Assembly: GCF_013426205.1 (NCBI RefSeq)
Contig: NC_089422.1
Coordinates: 6,661,001-6,725,000 of the forward strand
Length of the DNA stretch: 64,000 bases
Source of the DNA: Metarhizium brunneum
Lineage: Eukaryota > Ascomycota > Sordariomycetes > Hypocreales > Clavicipitaceae
Direction: 5' to 3'
Both the position numbers and the translations under genes were made by a program. A model generated the notes under the pieces. The model did no database searches, had not been told where the DNA came from, and saw nothing but the letters and a program-made list of their open reading frames with translations. This document shows positions 2,098 through 43,642 of the stretch, piece by piece; position 1 is the first letter of the stretch, and every line of letters starts with the position of its first letter.

Positions 2098-5000
2098 ATG
2101 CATGGTAGCACTATGATTTCCATGCAACGCTCGCTCTCGTCGCCGGTTCTCACACAGTCTCCTGCATGTATGTTGACATGTACCAGAATGAAACTTGCCT
2201 CGCTATTTGTACGCCCTGTTTCTAAACTGCCGGCCTTTGCTAATGTATGTCCTTTTGCTAGCAGTGCCTGCATCTCCAACCCGTACCCCCGGGTCTCCCA
2301 GTCCATCGCCCGCTGAAGATCAAAAAGATGTCTCCCAGGCAAGCTGTTACCGATCCCGCACGCCCCCTCGATCTCCAGAAGTCTCGCAGCAGACTCTACC
2401 CTTGCGTCATACCGATGGAGGCAACCGCTGGAGCTATCAACGGACACATTCTGGCCTAACAACCTCACGGCGGCCCTTGGTAGCACAGCCCGATGTCGCT
2501 GTCCAGACCAACGACCGGTGCAACTCAAATGAGCTACTAACTGGACCTCAAATCGAACCGCCTAGTGAAAGAGCCTGTCGCCGCCCTTGTACCCAACCGT
2601 TGATTGTGGATGTGACCCAATATACCAACCCTCACCTTACCAAGGAGGACGAAAACATCACACTGCAGGAGCTCGCCCATGTTGTGCGCCTGTCCAAGTA
2701 CCAAGAGCGCAAGCGCGCCAATACTCGAGTGCGTTTGCAGAGAAGTCTAATATCTACAGCCTTGAGTGCCCGTCTTACTCGGTGTGGTGATATTGCCAAC
2801 CGTAATCTGGTGGAAAGCTTCCGAAAGGACGATAAGGATGGCTTTGCAATGCTGTATAACGCAATACAGGACGTCCGAAAAAGCTGCGATGAGCTGCGCC
2901 GATATGCCTTGCTGGAGCCAGACATGGAACCGCTGTCGTCACCCGCTCTGGGTTCTTCGGAGAGCCTTGATACTCCCACTAGCTCCGTTGTTGGCGTTGC
3001 TCCGCTGAGGCCAATTACCCCCTTTCTCCATGATATTTCTGCTACGTCCCGGGATACCATTTTGGATTTTTTGTCAGAGCTGAGGACAAACCCTGATTAC
3101 CTGGCCACACGAATCTGCGCCCTCTCAAGCTCCGAGCTGAACGCTTTCCTTGGCTTTCACAAGGGAATGGAACCAGTGGAATCCGTTTTGCCATACCATG
3201 GGAGGTCTGCTAGCAGGCATCACGCAGGTGTGTCGTCTAGCCGAAGTAACGCAAGCTCCGATATAGAACGTCTCTTGTCATTTCAGCGTCATGACCCCTT
3301 GTCTATTTTAATACACTCCTGCTTTGCTAATTCTGCCGGCCCGGATAGCACCGAGGATCAACGACGAACTGATATTTGGGCAACAACGCTTGCTCGGCTC
3401 ATTCAGCAGCCCAAGTCTAGCAGTGAACATTTCCTAGTTTCTGTACTCAATATATGGACTGGGATGCGTGATTGGTCTGGCAAATCCAATATGGAATGGT
3501 ATCTTATGAAGATCCTTGAGGAAGGTGCCTTCATCCTTGACCGTGCCGAGGACCAGCACGGTACGCGGTTTAATCTTTCCGACTGGAATTCCTCTGACGA
3601 AGTTGCTGCCAAGGAGTTTTATGATAGGGCCGTTCAGGGACTCTTCGAACTGATTGATGACGAGGATGCGACAGGGATCCCCGAAGGTCTTCTGGAGCTT
3701 GGTAATGCCATCGTCAAGAAACTGGACAACAAATACGTGGAAAACACATCTCGATGGCTCGTCTGGAAATGTCTTTTCTTTGGTTTTCTTTTGGGAGTAA
3801 TCGTCCACCCTGAATCCCATGGCATGCTGGCTGAATATCACATCACCCCTTATGCGAGGGAAACGATCCTGAAGAAAGTTGCCATGAAAGCTTACGAATA
3901 TGTTTCTAGCATGTGGAGTGGTAAGCCTTCTGCCACCTGTGTGCCAGTGGAAGTGCCTCCGCAGATCAAGGACCACGTAGAGAGAATTCTTGCCAGGTTC
4001 CAAGGATCCCGCTCCAAGACACTTTCCGCAAAGCTTCTTCCTGCCCGATCCATTACTTCCCTGAGGGAGACGGTGGAGGTCCATCCGTACTTGGTCCTCA
4101 GCCCACCAGACTTGGCCACATTAGCCAATGCATTGTTTCCTGAGCGTCGGCCCATGTCTTCCATGTCCAACACTCTTCGATCTGGCGCCGCCTCCATATC
4201 TGGGCTGTCAGCTATTTCACAACAAGTCCCCACGCCCAATCTCCGGAACAGTAACTTGGAGACTGCGTCCATCATTAGTACCAGCTTTTCGTCCGTAATC
4301 AGCGATGGGACAACGGCCCCGCGAGAAGGGTCACAAGATGGCCAACCACATACGCCCTCTCAACGGCATTCTCCTCCGTCTGCTGACCCTGATGCCCAGA
4401 GAAAACTAGCGAATTACGAGGACGATGGCTACCGTCTGGGACTTGCTATGCACGAATTGAGCCAAAATTTAGGACCTGAAGCTCTCAAAGGAACCTTCCA
4501 CCCATGCGCCGAAAGATGGATTATCCTTTTTCTATCACCCGATGGTAAAAAATTATCGACTTCCATGACTTATGACCCAGAGGACGAGGCGGACGAAGAT
4601 GATAACTCTTCAAGTACCGACACAGATGAGGATGAGGGTACTAAAGGCCCCGAACTTGACAAGGATTACCACCAAATTCGTGACGCGATTCTTAGACTGG
4701 TGGAGGAATATGAAATTCCGAGAAATTTGGAAGCAGAAGGCGATCGTGCCCCCCAACTGACCAATCGAGCGTCCAGGCTCCGACGATACAAATCGAAAAA
4801 CAAAATCATCACAACAGAAAAGTCAGTGTCCCGTCGAAATCCATATAGAACGCATGATGGCAACAGCAGGTCCAATAATGCCTCTTTGGGGGACTCGGCA
4901 GTGCCAGATTCTGCCTTCCGGACAGCCTGGGAGGAGGATGAAGAACCTGTCCTAATCAAGATGCTGAGGGCTGCTTCGTCGCAATCCAAGGCACAGGCGG

Positions 5001-32716: not shown

Positions 32717-33535
32717 CTACTGGCATTGAGGGAAAGCACTCCTAGAGGAAGCAATCTTGAAAAGCCCGACCTCGTCCGCGCGACGCTTAACAAGGCCAGG
32801 CAGGACCCTGCCACCACCCATCTTCCACTTGGGCAGTTCCTCAGAGGCAACAGTGTTGGCATTCTCGCCACGGTTAAGCCGCTTGACGAGACTCGAGGAC
32901 TGGGCAGCGCCGCAGCCGACATTGAACACCCAGGAGGTCAGGGCAGCCCACTGGTTCTCATTGAGCTTGACTTTGCCGGCGTCGAGGGCCCTGCCCAAGC
33001 ACTTGGTGTAGCTGGGCAGGTCGTCGTTGAGAAGCTGGAGAGCCGTGGCCTTTGTCAGCGGGAACGTGTACTTGACCTCGGCGCAGCCCTTCTTCTGGCA
33101 CAGATGGCCGTAGCCGACGGTGGGCAGGCCGATGGGGTCGGGCTTGGGTCGGTCGACGAAGCCCTCCCAGCGGGTGATGAGGTCGGTGCCGGCCTTGTTG
33201 AGCGTCTTGCAGAAACCGCCGGACGGGGGAGGGTTGGAGCCGCCGCCGCCGCCGCCGCCGCATTTGCCCGTGACGTAGCCAGAGGAGCCGGTCTTGATGT
33301 AGTAATCGGCGACGTAGCAGCCGTCCTGGGTCTTGTCCCAGATGGAGTTGCCGTTGATAGAGGGCCCCTCGGTTTGGCAGGATATCTTGACGTCGTCGGT
33401 CTTTTTGTACGTCTTTTTGACGGCGGAGCTGGTGTTGGGCTCGGCTCGGCAGTTGAGAGAGTCGGCGGTGACTGGGAAGGCTGTGACCATGGTGGCGGTC
33501 ATGGCTAGCATGTTGGCAACAACAAGGACCTTCAT
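32717..33535 (-). CDS. Secreted phage-type GH24 lysozyme with SH3-like domain
   Basis: A single exon encodes about 272 aa from the Met at 33535. This start gives a good signal peptide; an in-frame codon at 33562 would put nine polar/aromatic residues before it. Residues about 20-85 resemble a bacterial-type SH3 domain (L-N-C-R-A-E-P-N-T-S-S then T-Y-K-K-T-D). A glycine linker of seven Gly encoded by CCG-type repeats follows. The C-terminal 160 residues are a T4-lysozyme-like GH24 domain. The catalytic spacing E-x8-D-x5-T is exact: Glu in R-W-E-G-F, then Asp and Thr in D-P-I-G-L-P-T-V-G-Y-G-H. Such enzymes cleave peptidoglycan. A secreted antibacterial role is likely. The SH3-plus-GH24 layout is bacterial/phage in style, so ancient transfer is plausible. 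It is intronless and intact. Confidence 0.93.
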   Translation of the reverse strand: MKVLVVANMLAMTATMVTAFPVTADSLNCRAEPNTSSAVKKTYKKTDDVKISCQTEGPSINGNSIWDKTQDGCYVADYYIKTGSSGYVTGKCGGGGGGGSNPPPSGGFCKTLNKAGTDLITRWEGFVDRPKPDPIGLPTVGYGHLCQKKGCAEVKYTFPLTKATALQLLNDDLPSYTKCLGRALDAGKVKLNENQWAALTSWVFNVGCGAAQSSSLVKRLNRGENANTVASEELPKWKMGGGRVLPGLVKRRADEVGLFKIASSRSAFPQCQ

Positions 33536-36500
33536 GTTGGAAAAGTAGCGAAAAGAGTGCAAGGCTTGGTTGAAGTTGAGACAGAGGAGAGTTGATTGGT
33601 TTGTAGAATGATGACCGATTCAGAACCAACGCCTGATTGAGATTCTTCGGGATCTTTATATGTTGCTCTCAGATATAAAAATAGAAGGCGCTAGGATAAA
33701 AAAACCAAAGTTGCAGGTATTCCCAGTTCCGTTATTACTCAACGCCAAAGAGACTTACACGTTATGGAAACAAGCCCCCATGCGGGTCATCCAATTCCTC
33801 AAACACCCGGTTGAGCCACTCACACGATGACGGTTAAAAATGAAGCTATGAGATTGCTGGCACTTGCTCTTTGTGATGCAGAACCGAGTGTAAGCCCCGG
33901 TTGAATCCGACTTACACAGATACTTGGCATGATTGCGGCTGAGATGGCCACCCTCCACTTTGCTTAGTTTCCAGGCACACTCCAATCGGGATCATCTGAA
34001 CCAGCAGGGAACCCTGTAAATAGCACAAGGCCAAACTCCATTAGGAGGCTATTTCTATTTTTAACCCCCCCAGCACACAGGCGCGGATCAGCTTTTCCTG
34101 AGTTGAGTATGCTGCGCGCAGCAAAGGAGATGCGCCATAACGACTAACAGGAGATGCAGTCTAAGAGATCTAGACGAGGCAGGAGTTGAGTTTGGCCGAC
34201 TTTACTGTTGCTTACATGCGAGTTGTGCTCGGTCAAACGGTACGCGTAGCTAAAGGGAGACATTGGCGAACTGAAGACACCATGGGATGCTTAGTGATGG
34301 TTGGTGTGAATACTAGCAAGTCGAGTTAGAAAGGTCCATGGAATCTACCTGTAGGAGAGACTGGCAAGCCGCACAACATGCGATATGTACTGCCCTGTAA
34401 CCTTTGAGACGGAGCTGCAGTCGACTCAAATATACAATCTTGTCGTGAATCATGTAGCGAACCGTGTAAACTAATGTCGCTAACGTCTGTGCTGTGTCTT
34501 GAAAATTCAGCTCGGGAAACAGCCAACATGAAAGAGTCGGTGGTTTTCACAAAAGACTCCTTCAGGGGACTTTTGAATGCAGACTCAACTCCGCAACCTT
34601 GTAGTGGCCGGGATCACGAACTCTTTGGCCTGCGAAAACTGTAAGTAAATCGGGCAGTCACCTATCGACTTGCAAAGTGGCATTATCGTTGGATACCAAG
34701 TAGACCTTGGCACCCGACGTGTCTTCGGCGGACATTCTAACGAACGAGAATGGATAGTGTTTTGGAGTGAGGAAGATTGCGTATCAAAAACGTTGAGGTA
34801 GCGAGGGTGGACGGGATAATGGGTCACATGAAGGATGCTTTCTTGCCTCTCGAACCATAGTCTTTGTCTGGATCGCAATGATGCGGAATCATCCAAGCCT
34901 CACTACCAAGTCTAGCGAGAGATTTATCAGGCGCACCAAAATTATCAATCTCGTCCGACCAAGGGATACCATCATACGCTCCCACGCTCGAATCGTAATA
35001 GCAGCAACCCGTCCGCACGAACGACCGCACTCCTGGTGTCTCGTCTCTCTGGCCTTCTGCCGCCGATAATCCGAAGCGTATGAGCCTGTGAAAGTGTCCC
35101 TAACTCAACGCAAATAGAAATAAAACTCATATGAGTGGTTAACAGGCGAAAATGGAACTTACCCTGCGCCAGTCGTATCCTCGACTTGGACATCAAATGC
35201 AGTATACTAGCCACTCCGCGTTGCAACGGCGTGGAATGCCTCCGGTACCAAGTGTAATAACCACGTTGGCTGTACCACGGTTTCGACATTCTTATGCGAT
35301 GCTAGGCCAAGTATCTTAATGAACGTCGCCTCTGTCACGTTTTGACATGATTGTTGACTCTGGCTCATTCACAAGGAAGTGCGGTTCGCAACCACGGCCA
35401 AGAGGCATCCAGGCCTGCGATGGTTTTTGATGTCGTTGTTGTTCGAACGGGGGAACTTGGCAGCCACGGGGGCATCCATAACATTTAAAGGATCAATGGT
35501 GGTGAGTGTCGTGGCATGATAACTGGTGACAACTGGTGCCAGCTGGTGCCAGCTGGTGCAGGGCCGTAGCTTGCGTAACGTTATTGGCCTGCCTACGCCA
35601 GCATTAACCAGACCAGTCGACGTCAATTGATAACTTGTGCGTGCCGACGGGTAGTTAATGCTACCAGACTCTACCCACAGCTACATCTAGTGCCTCTGCG
35701 CTTTTCCCCTTGATGAGTTGTCATGATAAGTTGGAATTGCTTTACGCGCACCAGACTCGGGCTGCTAATTTATAGTCTCAAGACAATTTTATGCAAACAG
35801 ACAGTGTCACAAAATCGAAGGGACCAGACCCCTCTATTCCGTTGACAGTCGGCTCAGGGGTGCGAACCTTGCCGCTACAGGTACTTGAATACAAGTAAAG
35901 GCAAAAAACATATACTAGCTAGCTACTTGTATTTTATAGCATTAAATAAGAGCAGCTTGTTGGAGAGCATAAGGGGCGAAGAGTTCATTATACTGGTTGC
36001 ACATCAGATGTGCGCACAACATGCGGGATTGATAACATTGATGCATCATGCGGAGGCGTCATTTGTTCCGACTTCGGGGCCGACATTTCCCGTAGAGCAT
36101 AATAAACTGGGGAGAAGAGGAGGAAAAAAGAAACGGTCGTTTTGGCAAACAAATGGATGCTCATAGGATACAGCTTCTAGATTCGCGAACCAATAAATTG
36201 ATCTCAACGGGTAATTTCGCACCGGGTGCTGGTGCCCGTGCTGGTGCCCAACAGCCCCGTTTTCGGATGGCTGTCTCCACCGAGTCTAAAAAGACGCACC
36301 AGGTTGGATCAGCCAATATTTCTGGGGGAAAACAGTAAAAAAATAAATGCTTACTTATGATTAGGGCTAAGAGAGTCTTGCTCACGCCAAGCTCGTGGCC
36401 CTGGCGAATACAACGCCGTAGCTTGGCATGGTGGTTCTCCTGCACATGATGACTGCGTGTGCAGATGCAATCTACCATGGCCATGGAACGCCATTCGCAG

Positions 36501-36842: not shown

Positions 36843-36861
36843 TTATCTGATGATCAGATAA
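36843..36861. promoter_or_regulatory. Paired inverted SreA-type iron-GATA sites
   Basis: TTATCTGAT (36843-36851) and ATCAGATAA (36853-36861) are inverted copies of ATCWGATAA separated by one G. This is the extended GATA site reported for the fungal iron regulator SreA. The pair lies about 610 bp upstream of the siderophore transporter start, where SreA would repress transcription in iron-replete cells. The match is seen directly; binding is inferred. Confidence 0.75.
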
Positions 36862-37163: not shown

Positions 37164-37172
37164 ATCAGATAA
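37164..37172 (+). promoter_or_regulatory. Third SreA-type GATA site
   Basis: An exact ATCAGATAA lies 299 bp upstream of the siderophore transporter ATG. With the paired sites at 36843-36861 it gives three SreA-type matches in this promoter. Confidence 0.65.
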
Positions 37173-37470: not shown

Positions 37471-39493
37471 ATGGCGCCGCAAATCACCCACCCGACGACA
37501 CCGGGCTTTGTCCCGGAGCCAGACAGAAACCCCTCCGACGTGGAAAAGGACCAAATCAACACCAACCATGAGGCTGACGACAAGAAACCAGACACCGAGC
37601 CCAGCTACAAGCAGGAAGGTGTCCAGCGAGTCGAGGCAATCACCAGCGTGTGGACAAAACAAATCCTCATCATCATGTTTGTCCTGTACGTCGTCGACAC
37701 ACGGCCAGCTTCCCACCCCTTTTATTCTTTTGCTAACACGTCCTCGCAAGTCTCTACCTCGTCTCCTTCATCGACCAGCTCCAGGGCTCCGTGACAGGCA
37801 ACCTCCAAAACTTCATCACGTCGTCCTTTGGCCAGCACGGCCTCCTCGCCGCCACCGACATCGTCGCCTCCATCATCGGCGGCGTGTGCACCCTCACCAT
37901 TGCCAAAATCATCGACATCTGGGGCCGCTGCGAGGGCTTCGTCGCCATGATTGTCCTCATGGTCGTCGGCCTCATCACAAAGGGCGTCAGCCAAGACGTT
38001 CCCACCTACGCCGCCGGCCACACCCTCTACTGGGTCGGCCACATTGGCCTCGGCTACATCATCACCATCATCCTCGCCGACATGACGACCCTGCGCAACC
38101 GGCTCATCCTGTTTGGCATCCAGCAGACGCCCATCATCGCCACCACCTTTGCGGGGCCCAGAATCGCCGACCTGTTCTACGCCAGTGCCAATTGCCGCTG
38201 GGCCTTTTACTCGTTTTGCATCATCCTGGTCTTCTTCGCCATCCCCGTTGCCATCGTCTTCGTCTTGAGCAAGAGAAAGGCCGTGCGCATGGGCGTCTAT
38301 CCCGAGCGGCCCAGGAACCGGACGGCCTGGGAGTCGTGTAGGCACTATTTTATCGAGTTTGACGGTCAGTCTTTTCCCCTCCCCGCGCCTGGTATTGCCC
38401 TCCCCTTAATGCTCACCTATATCCCTAGTTATTGGCATGTTTTTAACCGTCGCCGGATGGTCTCTTCTCCTGCTGCCCTTCCAGCTGGTCAACACGGCCG
38501 CAGACGGGTGGAAGACGGGCTACGTCATTGCCATGATTGTCGTGGGCGTCGTTTTGCTCGCCCTGTTCGCCATCTGGGAGAAGTACTTTGCGCCCGTCCA
38601 GTACTTCCCATGGGCGTATCTCAAGGACCGCACCATTCTCGGAGCCTGTCTACTCTACGGCTTCATGTTCCTCTCCATCTTGTACGCACTCGCAACCCAT
38701 CATCTCCTTGGCCACAACCAACCCACTAACACCAGAGTAGCTGCTGGGACACGTACTACCAGTCATACCTCGAGGTCGTGCACTTCCAGAGCATCACCGA
38801 CTCAGGCTACATCCTGAACTCGTTCTCTCTCGCATCGTCCGTCATTTCCCCCCTGATCGGAGTGTAAGCCCGCCTGCCACATATCCCCCTCCCCCCATGG
38901 CAAACTCTGCTAACCGCCCCAGCTACATCCGCTACTTTGGCAACGTCAAATGGCCCTCGCTCGCCATGATCCCCTTTGCCATCCTAGGCACGGCGCTGCT
39001 CGTGCGTTTCCGAACCCCCAGCACCTCGGTCGGCGTGCTAGTCATGTGCCAGCTCTTCAACGGCTTCGCGACAGGCGTCTGGGCCATGACCGGCCAGCTC
39101 GCCATCATGGCCTCCATCGACCACCAGCACATTGCCGTCGCCATTGCGCTGTTTGGGCTGTTCGGCTCCATCGGTCAGGCTATCGGCTTCGCAATCGCCG
39201 GCGGCCTGTGGACAAACACCATGGAGGACAAGATGTACCAGTACCTGCCGGACGACTACAAGAACCAGACGGCCACTATTTACGGCGACATCGAGGCCCA
39301 GTTGGCGCTTCCGGCGGGCAGTCCTGCGCGAGATGGGATTATTCATGCGTATAGCGACGTGCAGCGCGTCATGGCCATCTGCGGCTCGTGCTTCATGGCT
39401 CTGGCTATTTTATGCATCTTCATGTGGCGAAGCATCAATGTGCGAACATTGGAAGAGACTAGGGGAAAGCAAACCAAGGGTATGGTTTTCTAA
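37471..39493 (+). CDS. Siderophore-iron transporter (MFS)
   Basis: Five exons: join(37471..37685, 37751..38364, 38429..38681, 38741..38863, 38923..39493), 591 aa. All introns are in phase with strong signals (for example GTACGT..TGCTAACAC..CAAG). It matches the fungal siderophore:H+ symporters (Sit/Mir type): about 14 hydrophobic helices, a long hydrophilic N-terminus, F-I-D-Q-L-Q-G-S-V-T in helix 1, A-K-I-I-D-I-W-G-R after helix 2, F-C-W-D-T-Y-Y-Q-S-Y-L in the mid-loop, and an extracellular N-x-T glycosylation site near the end. It is expected to import ferri-siderophores at the plasma or endosomal membrane; the ligand is not predictable. The promoter has three SreA-type sites, which supports iron control. 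No siderophore synthesis gene lies in the window. Confidence 0.95.
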
Positions 39494-39724: not shown

Positions 39725-40321
39725 TCAAGCTGGACACTGGCCGCTCCGCGGGCGAAGCATCTGAATGTACAGATTCACTCCTTCATAATACCAAATGCCA
39801 CCTTTTCCCTGGTACATGCAGTCTGTTGTCAATTGAGACCGCATTTTTCCAGTCACTTGATCTAAGCTAAATGGAACATTCCATTCAAATGGTGCGCAAA
39901 CGACGGCCTGGCAGCATGCCTCGGTAATAGACGTGCAAGATTTTGCACCTATAGCAATTTCCCCCTTCTCGTCCACCATGCGGGTCCAGTATTCAATGAC
40001 TCTGGGACAGTCGTTTATCCTCGGGCCTGCTCCCTGTGAAGAATCTTGTCAGCTGGATGCGTACGCGCTGGCTTGGGTTGACAACAGCCTCACATCAGGG
40101 CAAGAATATTCACGATTTTTGTAATAATAGATGGTATCCCATATAATGTAATTCGGGTCAATCCCAACTTGTTTAGCCATGTCTGAAAAAGGAAAACGGG
40201 CGATGGTGGCATTTCCAAAGTCGAGCGAGGCTGGCTGAGGGGCATCTCTGAGAACCCAACACGTAGTCACGATAGGAAAAAGAACTGCAATAAACCGAAT
40301 ATACTTCATAGTTGCGTACAA
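39725..40321 (-). CDS. Small secreted cysteine-rich protein
   Basis: The model is complement(join(39725..40033, 40094..40321)). From the Met at 40309 it is about 174 aa; the ATG at 40321 adds four residues. It has a signal peptide (I-R-F-I-A-V-L-F-P-I-V-T-T-C). Exon 2 holds most of the cysteines (including the motif E-A-C-C-Q-A-V-V-C) and ends G-Q-C-P-A. The 60-bp intron (GTGAGG donor, AGCTGAC branch site, TTCACAG acceptor) is phase 0. The spacing of Cys, the motif R-V-I-E-Y-W near the first Cys of the mature domain and the Gly/Trp-rich end loosely recall Ecp2/Hce2-type effectors, but I would not assign that. It is secreted, with disulphides likely; the role is unknown. Confidence 0.75.
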
Positions 40322-40957
40322 GTGTCGACGTATTGCTAATCAATGTTTCGTAAGGGACTGTTGCCTAAGTAGGCTATGATGTTGACGGGCAGCGCTTTTT
40401 AGTAGGACGGGAGGAAGAACGAGAGGAAGAACGGCTGCTACCAGAGCCTTTCCTCGATGCGGGCTTCTTGTGAGACTTGGTCTTCTTGTCAGGCTTCTTT
40501 CGTCCAAAGACACGTCGAAAGAAATGTCGAGTTCGCAGATAGGCACGGAAGACCTTGAGCAGTAAACAATGCATGGTGGAGGGAATGGAAAAAGTGTTTG
40601 CGTGACGCAGACGGCAACGATTTATGGAAGGGGGCAGGTTTCAGGTTCATGTCACTTTTGGAAGGCTTGGTCCGGCCCCTTCCTCATGTCGAGTCGCTTA
40701 ACAGAGCATCATCCTCAGCGCTCGGCAGTAGCGTGCCTTGCAGTCGTAATAAGAAAGAGTCTGGTCGCAAAAATCACGAACAAAGCAAGTGTGACACGGG
40801 AACACGCAACGGCAATTTCGTGGCAATCATTAAGCGCTTCTCCGTGCACCACACCTTCCATCAGTTGTCTCGTCGAGGAAAGCATATAAACGGCAAGTAC
40901 AATCTTCGAATTTCCACCCAAACCCTCCTGGCTGCCTTGGTAGTCAACTAACAAGAT
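40322..40957. other. Intergenic with a small basic open frame
   Basis: 636 bp between the Cys-rich secreted gene and the X325-like gene. It contains the promoter of the former and the 3' end of the latter, plus the small basic frame at 40374-40574 (separate entry). Confidence 0.5.
40374..40574 (-). CDS. Small basic Lys/Ser-rich open frame (doubtful)
   Basis: 66 codons from an ATG. A short hydrophobic/aromatic N-terminus (M-H-C-L-L-L-K-V-F-R) leads into a tail made of K, R, S and P (K-K-P-D-K-K-T-K-S-H-K-K, then S-S-R-S-S-S-R). The composition is unlike random AT-rich intergenic sequence and the frame is clean. There are no homologues I can name and no upstream exon. It lies within the promoter of the secreted Cys-rich gene, on the same strand, so it could be an upstream frame in a longer leader. 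Treat as tentative. Confidence 0.25.
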   Translation of the reverse strand: MHCLLLKVFRAYLRTRHFFRRVFGRKKPDKKTKSHKKPASRKGSGSSRSSSRSSSRPTKKRCPSTS

Positions 40958-41882
40958 CTACGCTGATTCGCTTCGAACAGAGGGCGAATCCCTATGCTGC
41001 CCATCCGGTTTTATATTTCGAGGAGAGAACTTCTGTCGCAACATCCGCAGACGCTGCTGCCTTCGTCTGTAAATGAGCAAGGCAGCGACGGCAATCAGTG
41101 CCACGCCGCCAACAACGCCGATGACAACGCCAGCGGTGCCGCCGCCAGAGAGACCGGAACTCGCAGAGCCCGAGTTCTTGGACGCGTCTGATGTGGGCGT
41201 AGGGGTATCCTTTTTGCTGTCCTCGGGCACTGTGGCGTTGAAGCACGGAACCTTCTCCTTGAAGTTGGCAAACTCGACATAGGTGATGTCGGCACACGCG
41301 TAAAACGTCTCCTTGTCGGGCTTGTCAAAGCTGGCTACGTATTTGATCTGGAAAGTGGCGTTCGCTCCAGCCTTGATGAAGGGTGGTGGATTCTGGACGT
41401 TCACGCAAGTGTGTCCCTTGTCCAACTCAGCCATAGCCTCGGGCTTTATAAGTGTTGTGAAGTCATTGTCTTCCTTGGGATCTGGAGCAAAGACCCGTCA
41501 GCTCTTGGATTTGGTGTGCTTTTATTTAGATGATGCAGGGGTCAACAAACCGTCATCGTACGAAATACTTAGTTGGACGCTATGGGCTTCCTTTTGATCA
41601 ACAAGAGCAACCTGACCATTGGCTGTCACATGGTTAGTTGGTCGGAGTTGATGCAGCCACAGCATAGTTGATATGTGCTTCCATACTCAGCGGGAAATTG
41701 GTGCGGTTGCCCACACGAGCGACTGATCCGCAAGGCGCAGTATTATCAGCAGCGGCAGACCAGACTCTGTCTTCCGGCCACATAAAGGCCGCAGGTCCCA
41801 TGTCGTCGGAGGTTGTTGGGTTGGCAGCTGTGGCAACCGAAGTTGCCATGGCCAGGACGGCCAGCAATCTCAACAGAGCCAT
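40958..41882 (-). CDS. X325/Bim1-like (LPMO-like) membrane-anchored surface protein
   Basis: The model is complement(join(40958..41481, 41551..41611, 41661..41882)), 268 aa. It has a signal peptide (M-A-L-L-R-L-L-A-V-L-A-M-A), the family motif D-N-T-A-P-C-G-S, N-R-T-N-F-P-L-S and, in the last exon, A-N-A-T-F-Q-I then Y-A-C-A-D-I-T-Y. These match the LPMO-like copper proteins (X325), which includes Cryptococcus Bim1, a copper-acquisition factor. Here the mature N-terminus (A-N-P-T-T-S-D-D-M-G-P) has no His to form the copper brace. The C-terminus is Ser/Thr-rich, followed by a transmembrane helix (about 24 residues, G-V-V-I-G-V-V-G-G-V-A-L) and a basic cytosolic tail instead of a GPI signal. 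The first intron (49 bp, weak GTGGCT donor, ACTAACC branch site) is the least certain boundary. Confidence 0.85.
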
Positions 41883-42910
41883 TTCGAAACGCGGTTCATT
41901 CAAGAAGGCAGTACTGATATGTCTGGTTCATAGTCAATTCGAGAAAATCCCAAATGTGGGAGACGAGCAACACGAGCGGTATTAATGGAAAGCACACACA
42001 CACACACGCACCCATCACAGCCATGGTCCATCACCACAACTTCATCCAACTGGGCAATTCGCTCCCCCACCGGCCTGCCAAACGCACGGGAGAATTGAAA
42101 ACAAAGTGCACGACAGCATATTGATGCAACGGCACACTCGCACAAAGAGAATGGTCTAAAACTTGTGTGGTAGCATCCAAGCTGCTGGCAACATAAAACA
42201 TTGAAGCCATCCCCGCACACACGGATCGTCCTCGAATCGCCGAGAGGCCCCGACCCACGCCGTGCGCCATGAAAGGCAGGTTGCCAAGTCCCATCAACCC
42301 GCTGCAGCCATTGATTTGCCAGCGAGGTAAATATTGGCAGGGGGGCGAGTTATCAGATGATCAGATAACAGATGTTGGATGAAGCGTGCCACTTCCATTG
42401 GTCCGTCCCGCGCCACTTGACGGCCGACGCACGGCAATCAAGTTCACTGTCTGCTTCGCATGCGAGTGCATAGGCGCAAATTGGTTCATTGGCTGATGAT
42501 GAAGTCCTCGTATCCGCCCAAGGTTGATTTATAGGCCAAGGATGCTCCTCCGATCGGCGCCGAGAGTTTGGGGAGGGGAAGTTGACGAACCCTTGGCAAG
42601 CCTTCCCCAGGTTCCAGTCAAGGCCAAGAAAGATCCCCAACAAGAATGTGCCGGGAGACACAAGTAGAATCGGGCAAGCTGGGAGAGGCACTTTTGGGTT
42701 GCATGGAGTCTGCGCGTGTGGTTCATGGCTCTCGGGTACAGGGATTGCATTTGTTGCTGTTGTATCTGGTCGAGCTGTATATAAAGACCATGCCTCCGGG
42801 GACATTTCCGGCGTCGACCCTCTTGCCCAGTCGGTTTCTGTTGGCCGTTTCTTTAGAAACTCCATCAGCTTCTTCCAATCGTCACTTGTTTGAGCACTGC
42901 GTCCAGCAAG
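41883..42910. other. Divergent promoter region with paired SreA-type sites
   Basis: 1 kb between the X325-like gene (minus) and the GPI-anchored Cys-rich gene (plus). It contains a (CA)-type run at about 41994-42008, the paired GATA sites at 42350-42368, and a TATA-like TATATAAAGACC at about 42776. No gene was recognised. Confidence 0.6.
42350..42368. promoter_or_regulatory. Paired inverted SreA-type iron-GATA sites (second copy)
   Basis: TTATCAGAT (42350-42358) and ATCAGATAA (42360-42368) are inverted, 1 bp apart. This is the same arrangement as at 36843-36861. It lies 468 bp upstream of the X325-like gene start and 543 bp upstream of the GPI-anchored Cys-rich gene start, so it could serve either or both. 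Function is inferred from the motif. Confidence 0.7.
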
Positions 42911-43642
42911 ATGCGCTTCACTGCTTCTGCTCTCGCCATCGGCGCGGTGGCATCCCTAGCCGCCGCCGTTGCCAACCCGGACTTCAGCTTTCCCGACATT
43001 GTCCCCATGGCGAAGCGTCAGAACTCGGGTCCTGCTTATCAATGCCACGCCAGTTGTGGTCAGTACACCGCCGTGGGTGCCCAATGACACGATTTCCGCC
43101 AGACTAACTTGTCCGTAGGATATGCCATCCAGAACTCCACCAAGGATGGCTACTGTCAGGACCAGTCCTGGGTGAAGCTCCTAGACGACTGCCTCGACTG
43201 CGCCCTCAAGTACAAGATCTGGCAGTGGTACGGCGACAAGGTCAGCGCCGCCGCCGGGAAGTGCGGCCTGGAGGCGACTCCCAAGCCCGTTGACGACAGT
43301 GGTTCATCCCAGGTTGGGTCGGGGACTGCAGCCCCCAGCACCACTCCCATCACTACGGCAGCTCAGCAGACGAGCGCTCCAGGCCAGTCTACCCATGCAG
43401 AAAGCCGTTCGGTTTCGGGACCAGTGGCGCCCACTTCTGCCGTTCAAACCACCGCGGCGTCTGATGTTGCCCCCGGTCACAATTCTGTAAGAGTGCCACG
43501 GAGCATATGCTCGGAACACTGCTGACAAAAATGGCAGACCGCCAGTCATGCTCCAACCGTCACAGCCGGGGCATCGCAAAACATGCTTTCCGGCCGTGTC
43601 GTAGCTGGAGTGGCCGTTTTGATTGCCGCCAACATGTTTTAA
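42911..43642 (+). CDS. GPI-anchored cysteine-rich surface protein
   Basis: Three exons: join(42911..43058, 43119..43486, 43538..43642), 206 aa. It has a signal peptide (M-R-F-T-A-S-A-L-A-I-G-A), a Kex2-like site (A-K-R at about residue 36), then a compact Cys domain: Y-Q-C-H-A-S-C-G-Y-A-I, G-Y-C-Q-D, D-D-C-L-D-C-A-L-K-Y and A-A-G-K-C-G-L. A Ser/Thr/Pro-rich stalk and a hydrophobic C-terminus (V-V-A-G-V-A-V-L-I-A-A-N-M-F), the mark of GPI anchoring, follow. The Cys domain recurs in many ascomycete surface proteins, but I know of no assigned function. Introns are canonical (GTCAGT..CCGTAG and GTAAGA..GGCAG). The shared upstream SreA-type pair suggests iron-linked expression, which is inference. 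Confidence 0.88.

Follow-up and report, generated by a model that had tools for sequence, protein, structure and literature searches.

A probable SRE operator in strict paired form between a BIM1-like gene and a cysteine-rich gene of Metarhizium brunneum

The 64,000-nucleotide stretch of Metarhizium brunneum DNA analysed here (the window) carries a 19-bp inverted repeat between two divergent genes for surface-type proteins, which raises the question of whether the pair is controlled by iron together with siderophore uptake. The element, assigned to neither strand, lies at 42350..42368 and consists of the inverted pair TTATCAGAT-G-ATCAGATAA (TTATCAGATGATCAGATAA in full). We propose it as an operator of the SRE (SreA-type) repressor; both arms are exact matches to ATCWGATAA. 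The original prediction held that the arrangement recurs 5.5 kb away at a siderophore transporter. This is confirmed by TTATCTGATGATCAGATAA at 36843..36861, likewise without strand, which lies upstream of mirB and has the identical inverted orientation and one-base spacer, differing at one W-position. An additional single ATCAGATAA is found upstream of mirB at 37164..37172 on the plus strand. The mirB gene (37471..39493, plus strand, several exons, MFS_1) encodes an MFS siderophore iron transporter with 96% identity to the M. acridum protein named 'siderophore iron transporter mirB'.

The predicted identities of the flanking genes held as well. On the minus strand is a BIM1-like gene of the X325 family (40958..41882; exons 41882-41687, 41622-41551 and 41481-40958) that encodes 263 aa with a PF20238 domain (E 3.7e-41), and its spliced product is 100% identical over the full length to deposited M. 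brunneum G6M90_00g020290. On the plus strand is a gene for a six-cysteine secreted-type protein of 206 aa, referred to here as the Cys-rich gene (42911..43642; exons 42911-43058, 43119-43486 and 43538-43642). The divergent promoter region shared by the two, 41883..42910 on neither strand in particular, spans 1028 bp and contains no HGATAR-type sites besides the two arms of the element. Four CCAAT/ATTGG boxes are situated no more than 250 bp from it. The 9-mers are offset by 10 bp, approximately one helical turn, which would place both arms on one face of the DNA.

ATCWGATAA is the motif of the SreA regulon in Aspergillus fumigatus, where it is 5.4-fold enriched upstream of 49 SreA-regulated genes and is described in its single form as partly palindromic (PMC2610380). 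The M. brunneum element resembles that motif in that both arms match it and an SRE orthologue is present; however, two full inverted 9-mers are separated here by one G or C, and this form occurs six times in the genome. A second precedent is the shared promoter of the A. fumigatus iron genes ftrA and fetC, which contains the tighter inverted pair TTATCAATCAGATAA (PMC10294635). Both are inverted GATA pairs with an extended arm in the shared divergent promoter of two genes, while the ftrA/fetC site differs in its length of 15 bp, its 5-base left arm and its tighter spacing. The 19-bp form with a one-base spacer was not found described in the excerpts of literature on ATCWGATAA and siderophores or on SreA and palindromic sites, and it is not claimed to be unpublished.

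The rarity of the element was assessed across the M. brunneum genome (37.77 Mb, seven contigs, with positions given below as contig:position). As a single motif, ATCWGATAA occurs at 446 sites (236 on the forward and 210 on the reverse strand), compared with 341 (190 and 151) for a control in which the pattern was read backwards, an enrichment so slight that a lone site means little. From these counts it could be argued that the copy at 42350 arose by chance or is a relic, with no effect on the pair. The exact pair TTATCWGAT-N-ATCWGATAA makes this highly improbable: about 0.0013 copies are expected for any one spacing and six are found (Poisson tail near 7e-21), and the copy at 42350 has two perfect arms and MirB next door. 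In the window, six ATCWGATAA sites compare with 0.62 expected, a number that none of 100 shuffles reached, and 0.00 occurrences of the 19-mer with up to three mismatches are expected.

The spacing is as strict as the sequence. Inverted pairs with spacers of 0-30 occur at eight places versus one in the control; six of the eight have a spacer of 1, one has a spacer of 2, and one has a spacer of 18 that encloses a spacer-1 place. Head-to-head pairs were found at one place, as in the control, and direct pairs also at one place, within a triple at C2:1878658 (control 0). Relaxing the four inner positions yielded seven places, namely the six exact copies and one new (control 0), and allowing up to two mismatches yielded 12, of which six are exact, one has a single mismatch and five have two (control 1). 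When TTATC alone was required on the left with gaps of 0-24, 14 places were found (six at gap 5, three at gap 6, two at gap 1, and one each at gaps 12, 17 and 23), and all six at gap 5 are complete 19-mers. The total for this loose search was 22 rows versus 16 in the control, so little an excess that the signal is the gap-5 peak only. In 7/7 copies, the one-mismatch copy included, the spacer is filled by a G or a C. Since the 30-bp flanks are unrelated, the copies do not appear to derive from one repeat. No CBC:HapX-type motif was found beside the copies when scored against one consensus for it, nor were CCAAT boxes consistent there; on both grounds a HapX:CBC co-site was rejected.

The genes beside the other copies point to siderophore metabolism. 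The names SidA, SidC, SidD, SidI and SidF are assigned from domain make-up and arrangement and are taken here as presumptive. Besides the copies that precede mirB (window 36843) and separate the BIM1-like/Cys-rich pair (window 42350), an exact copy at C2:1878676 lies between an NRPS gene (SidC-like) and an ornithine monooxygenase gene (SidA-like; PF13434, E 4.6e-78), about 2 kb from each. Another at C1:3427446 precedes a MirB-like MFS gene with 35% identity to MirB, and a third at C6:2125916 is accompanied by two CFEM genes and an MFS gene that is also 35% identical to MirB. The last, at C6:2128784, is 2.9 kb from the third and lies between GNAT and SHR3-like genes, just past the former and 1.3 kb before the latter, with no obvious iron-gene promoter. 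The one-mismatch copy at C1:2713830 is positioned between an NRPS gene (SidD-like, about 2 kb away) and an AMP-ligase gene (SidI-like), near genes for a GNAT protein (PF13523), an FAD enzyme and an ABC transporter. As a separate observation, the region C6:2117000-2136800 (loci L011/L012) holds two 19-mers, 2.9 kb from each other, amid genes for an MFS transporter, two CFEM proteins, a GNAT protein and a mitochondrial carrier that presumably resembles the ornithine carriers of siderophore pathways.

The HGATAR core is common to all GATA factors, and a search of the genome for GATA fingers gave eight matches, counted as seven GATA genes since two fingers stand in one frame. A different GATA factor, whether of the nitrogen AreA type or another of these proteins, might then use the element, as the core is also described as shared among GATA factors in PMC2610380. 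This is improbable given that the full iron-type extension ATCW is present in both arms of 6/6 exact copies, that copies lie at siderophore loci, and that no ATCWGATAA was found in the loci of about 3 kb around the other GATA-factor genes. The gene whose frame contains two fingers, at C1:1998557 and C1:1999025, has the order finger, Cys-rich stretch CPGGGRCNGTGGAEGCNGC, finger; by its sequence this gene is the SRE/SreA orthologue and the expected repressor. A ATCAGATAA site is present about 0.1 kb before the ATG of this orthologue (L029:1023-1031), which may indicate self-control of the iron repressor. In A. fumigatus (PMC2610380), the genes under SreA control include sidA, sidC and sidD/sidF as well as transporters, among them one for peptides, and a ferric reductase; the neighbours found here (siderophore synthesis, transporters and ferric reductase) match that regulon. 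The 19-bp element is very probably an SRE operator.

The element does not accompany every MirB-like gene. Among the ten MirB-like loci with E below 1e-29, the 19-mer is present in three and absent in seven, and four of the seven resemble MirB more closely, at 40-49% identity, than do two of the carriers, at 35%. The element therefore marks a subset. At four control loci, two with other pair arrangements and two with tight pairs (L013, L014, L040 and L041), none of the nine ORFs scanned was a siderophore-type gene; these were an alpha-galactosidase, a But2 protein, an S28 peptidase, a GH31 enzyme, a rhodanese, one MFS fragment and three with no match. Tight pairs of the form TTATC-N-ATCWGATAA occur at two places in the genome, neither of which has a recognised iron gene next to it, and were discarded as an iron element.

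The five two-mismatch copies are suggestive only and were left out of the count of regulon sites. The copy at C4:948137 is near a ferric reductase gene, about 0.8 kb before it; C1:1063803 (L018:4804-4822) closely precedes an OPT oligopeptide transporter gene; C2:3683011 has an OPT gene about 1.3 kb away; C5:2709403 is about 2.7 kb from a reductase-like gene; and C7:842879 is near nothing evident. For A. fumigatus, an SreA-repressed peptide transporter is described (PMC2610380). An identical two-mismatch 19-mer, TTATCTGATCATCTTATCA, occurs at two unlinked places, C4:948137 (L019:4938 region) and C5:2709403 (L020:4914 region).

It must then be asked whether the element serves both genes of the pair. 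Its distance to the ATG is 468 bp on the BIM1-like side and 543 bp on the Cys-rich side, which does not decide between one gene and both. It is conceivable, if rather unlikely, that it controls one gene only, or acts mainly as a local boundary, with the other gene an unregulated bystander. A TATATA box at 42778 on the Cys-rich side of the promoter only would fit such one-sided control, as would the second BIM1-like gene of the genome, which has ATCAGATAA sites of its own and so suggests the BIM1-like gene as the conserved target. Against one-sided control are the A. fumigatus ftrA/fetC promoter, in which one SreA-type site lies between two genes (PMC10294635), and the persistence of the two genes as neighbours, by locus tag, in several genera.

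The neighbourhood in other genera was read from locus tags and from contigs of equal size among the listed matches. The BIM1-like and Cys-rich genes have adjacent tags in M. anisopliae (E5D57_011235/011236) and likewise in Tolypocladium ophioglossoides, Aphanocladium album and Cordyceps javanica, whereas in Epichloe festucae the tags are three apart. The difference grows to 25 tags in one M. rileyi assembly and in Beauveria gryllotalpidicola, for which the BIM1-like match listed may be a paralogue. With respect to the transporter, the tags of MirB and the BIM1-like gene directly follow one another in Conoideocrella (QQS21_003053/003054). In Tolypocladium capitatum, MirB and the Cys-rich gene are on contigs both 59,751 long, and in M. 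acridum, MirB and the BIM1-like gene are on contigs both 246,917 long. These tags and contigs indicate, indirectly, that the MirB, BIM1-like and Cys-rich genes keep company in other genera.

From its sequence and surroundings, the element is likely a two-arm SRE operator common to the divergent pair that would keep both genes repressed under ample iron, in concert with mirB and the siderophore genes. In iron-sufficient cells, the SRE/SreA-type repressor would occupy both arms and the BIM1-like and Cys-rich genes would be off; the same repression would extend to the siderophore genes and mirB. Under iron scarcity the repressor would leave and all would be derepressed, and the two products would help iron uptake at the cell surface beside MirB. 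The sequence itself shows the element, its six copies in the genome with their one spacing, the genes next to them and the SRE orthologue; binding, repression, action on both genes and a function of the products in iron uptake are what we infer. As a prediction, iron control of the pair in step with siderophore uptake has strong support from the six exact copies with their one spacing, the siderophore and CFEM loci at which others of them lie, the SRE orthologue, and the proximity of MirB in other genera. The accompanying suggestion of metal capture at the wall by either product is unproven and stays a conjecture.

The BIM1-like protein is composed of a signal-like N-terminus, an LPMO-like domain, a predicted C-terminal membrane helix (206-241) and a basic tail, with no evident GPI signal at the C-terminus as judged from the model and by eye. 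The predicted model (mean pLDDT 69.8) has an LPMO-like fold that best matches LaX325 (6ibh, E 4.6e-6). The protein thus shares PF20238 and the fold with the X325/Bim1 copper proteins, of which LaX325 (6ibh/6ibi/6ibj) and Bim1 of C. neoformans are examples; however, its branch is without the histidine brace and has an invariant Gly-His-x-Cys instead, and it differs further in its predicted membrane helix and in a predicted control by iron rather than copper. Among 50 aligned relatives, chosen from the best 120 of 163 matches, the second brace histidine (region 74-78) is present in none, and H79 is present in the window's protein only. No histidine keeps a fixed place before the domain across the 50, although a few of them carry one close to a possible cleavage site. 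At Gly112, His113 and Cys115 the alignment does not vary (His 50/50). The missing second brace histidine and the lack of a fixed histidine before the domain argue against copper as the captured metal, and on its residues a copper role for this protein is unlikely.

Five BIM1-like genes are present in the genome (seven matches, with two genes in two exons). The second, C1:6728106, is 25 kb from the window's gene and just past the window end (C1:6727234-6729029; L015:2234-2610, 2992-4029); it belongs to the same GPAAFMWP branch and has the same tail plan. Three ATCAGATAA sites are located 0.4-0.75 kb before its ATG, each inside ATCTTATCTGATCC. No ATCAGATAA site was found within about 1.5 kb of the other three paralogues (L033, L034 and L038), the first two of which have a histidine right after the signal-like stretch. 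In this small sample the sites track the brace-less branch (2/2) and are absent from the others (3/3).

The Cys-rich gene is single-copy, the next match in the genome having an E of 0.14. Its product has six conserved cysteines and a three-helix core followed by a Ser/Thr-rich tail, and a GPI anchor is probable from the C-terminus as read by eye. It has 18 relatives, and those that are named are presumably all from Hypocreales. Neither a Pfam domain, at 0.01, nor a matching fold in the PDB, at E 0.001, was found. Like the CFEM proteins of haem and iron capture, it is small, cysteine-rich and of secreted type and is encoded next to an SRE-type element, and two true CFEM genes adjoin the C6 copy of the 19-mer. 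A CFEM identity was rejected on the basis of the absent domain, the six cysteines rather than eight and the absent fold match; the protein is also without the CxC of the CFEM pattern quoted in PMC12054149.

Two further identities were considered. The X325-like SymB is tied to hyphal fusion, and the pair was therefore considered as a possible counterpart of IDC2/HAM-7/SymB and IDC3/SymC. That reading was dropped by gene position, because Podospora IDC2 (Pa_1_16080, listed as GPI-anchored) and IDC3 (Pa_1_1990) are not neighbours (PMC6162560). Three BIM1-like relatives (P0113, P0116 and P0120) are named 'cytokine inducing-glycoprotein', and Cryptococcus Cig1 is an iron-regulated haem-binding mannoprotein (PMC3757031). 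Kinship with Cig1 is not claimed, as the link rested on the names of relatives and no literature joining Cig1, Bim1 and copper was found.

By the company and control of its gene, an iron, siderophore or haem role may be guessed for the BIM1-like protein. More speculatively, the brace-less, membrane-anchored X325/Bim1 branch might have left copper for iron and, with its six-cysteine partner, might form an SRE-controlled, MirB-linked surface module at the wall, one that captures iron, haem or ferric-siderophore and passes it on, with Gly-His-x-Cys as part of its site.

The element is the known SreA-type motif in a strict paired form, and it points to an unstudied iron-linked branch of X325. If the predicted control is true, an uncharacterised surface-protein pair is to be added to the siderophore regulon of a biocontrol fungus that kills insects, and the X325/Bim1 family, known for copper, gains an iron-regulated, brace-less branch. 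With an operator as rare and strict as this one, at six copies, members of the iron regulon would be findable from sequence alone in Metarhizium.

Two other features of the window were noted. The minus strand at 32717-33562 encodes a protein of secreted type that contains a phage-type lysozyme domain (PF00959, E 1.1e-37). Between mirB and the BIM1-like gene, two open stretches at 39728-40339 on the minus strand, with no Pfam match, are likely exons of a small secreted-type protein.
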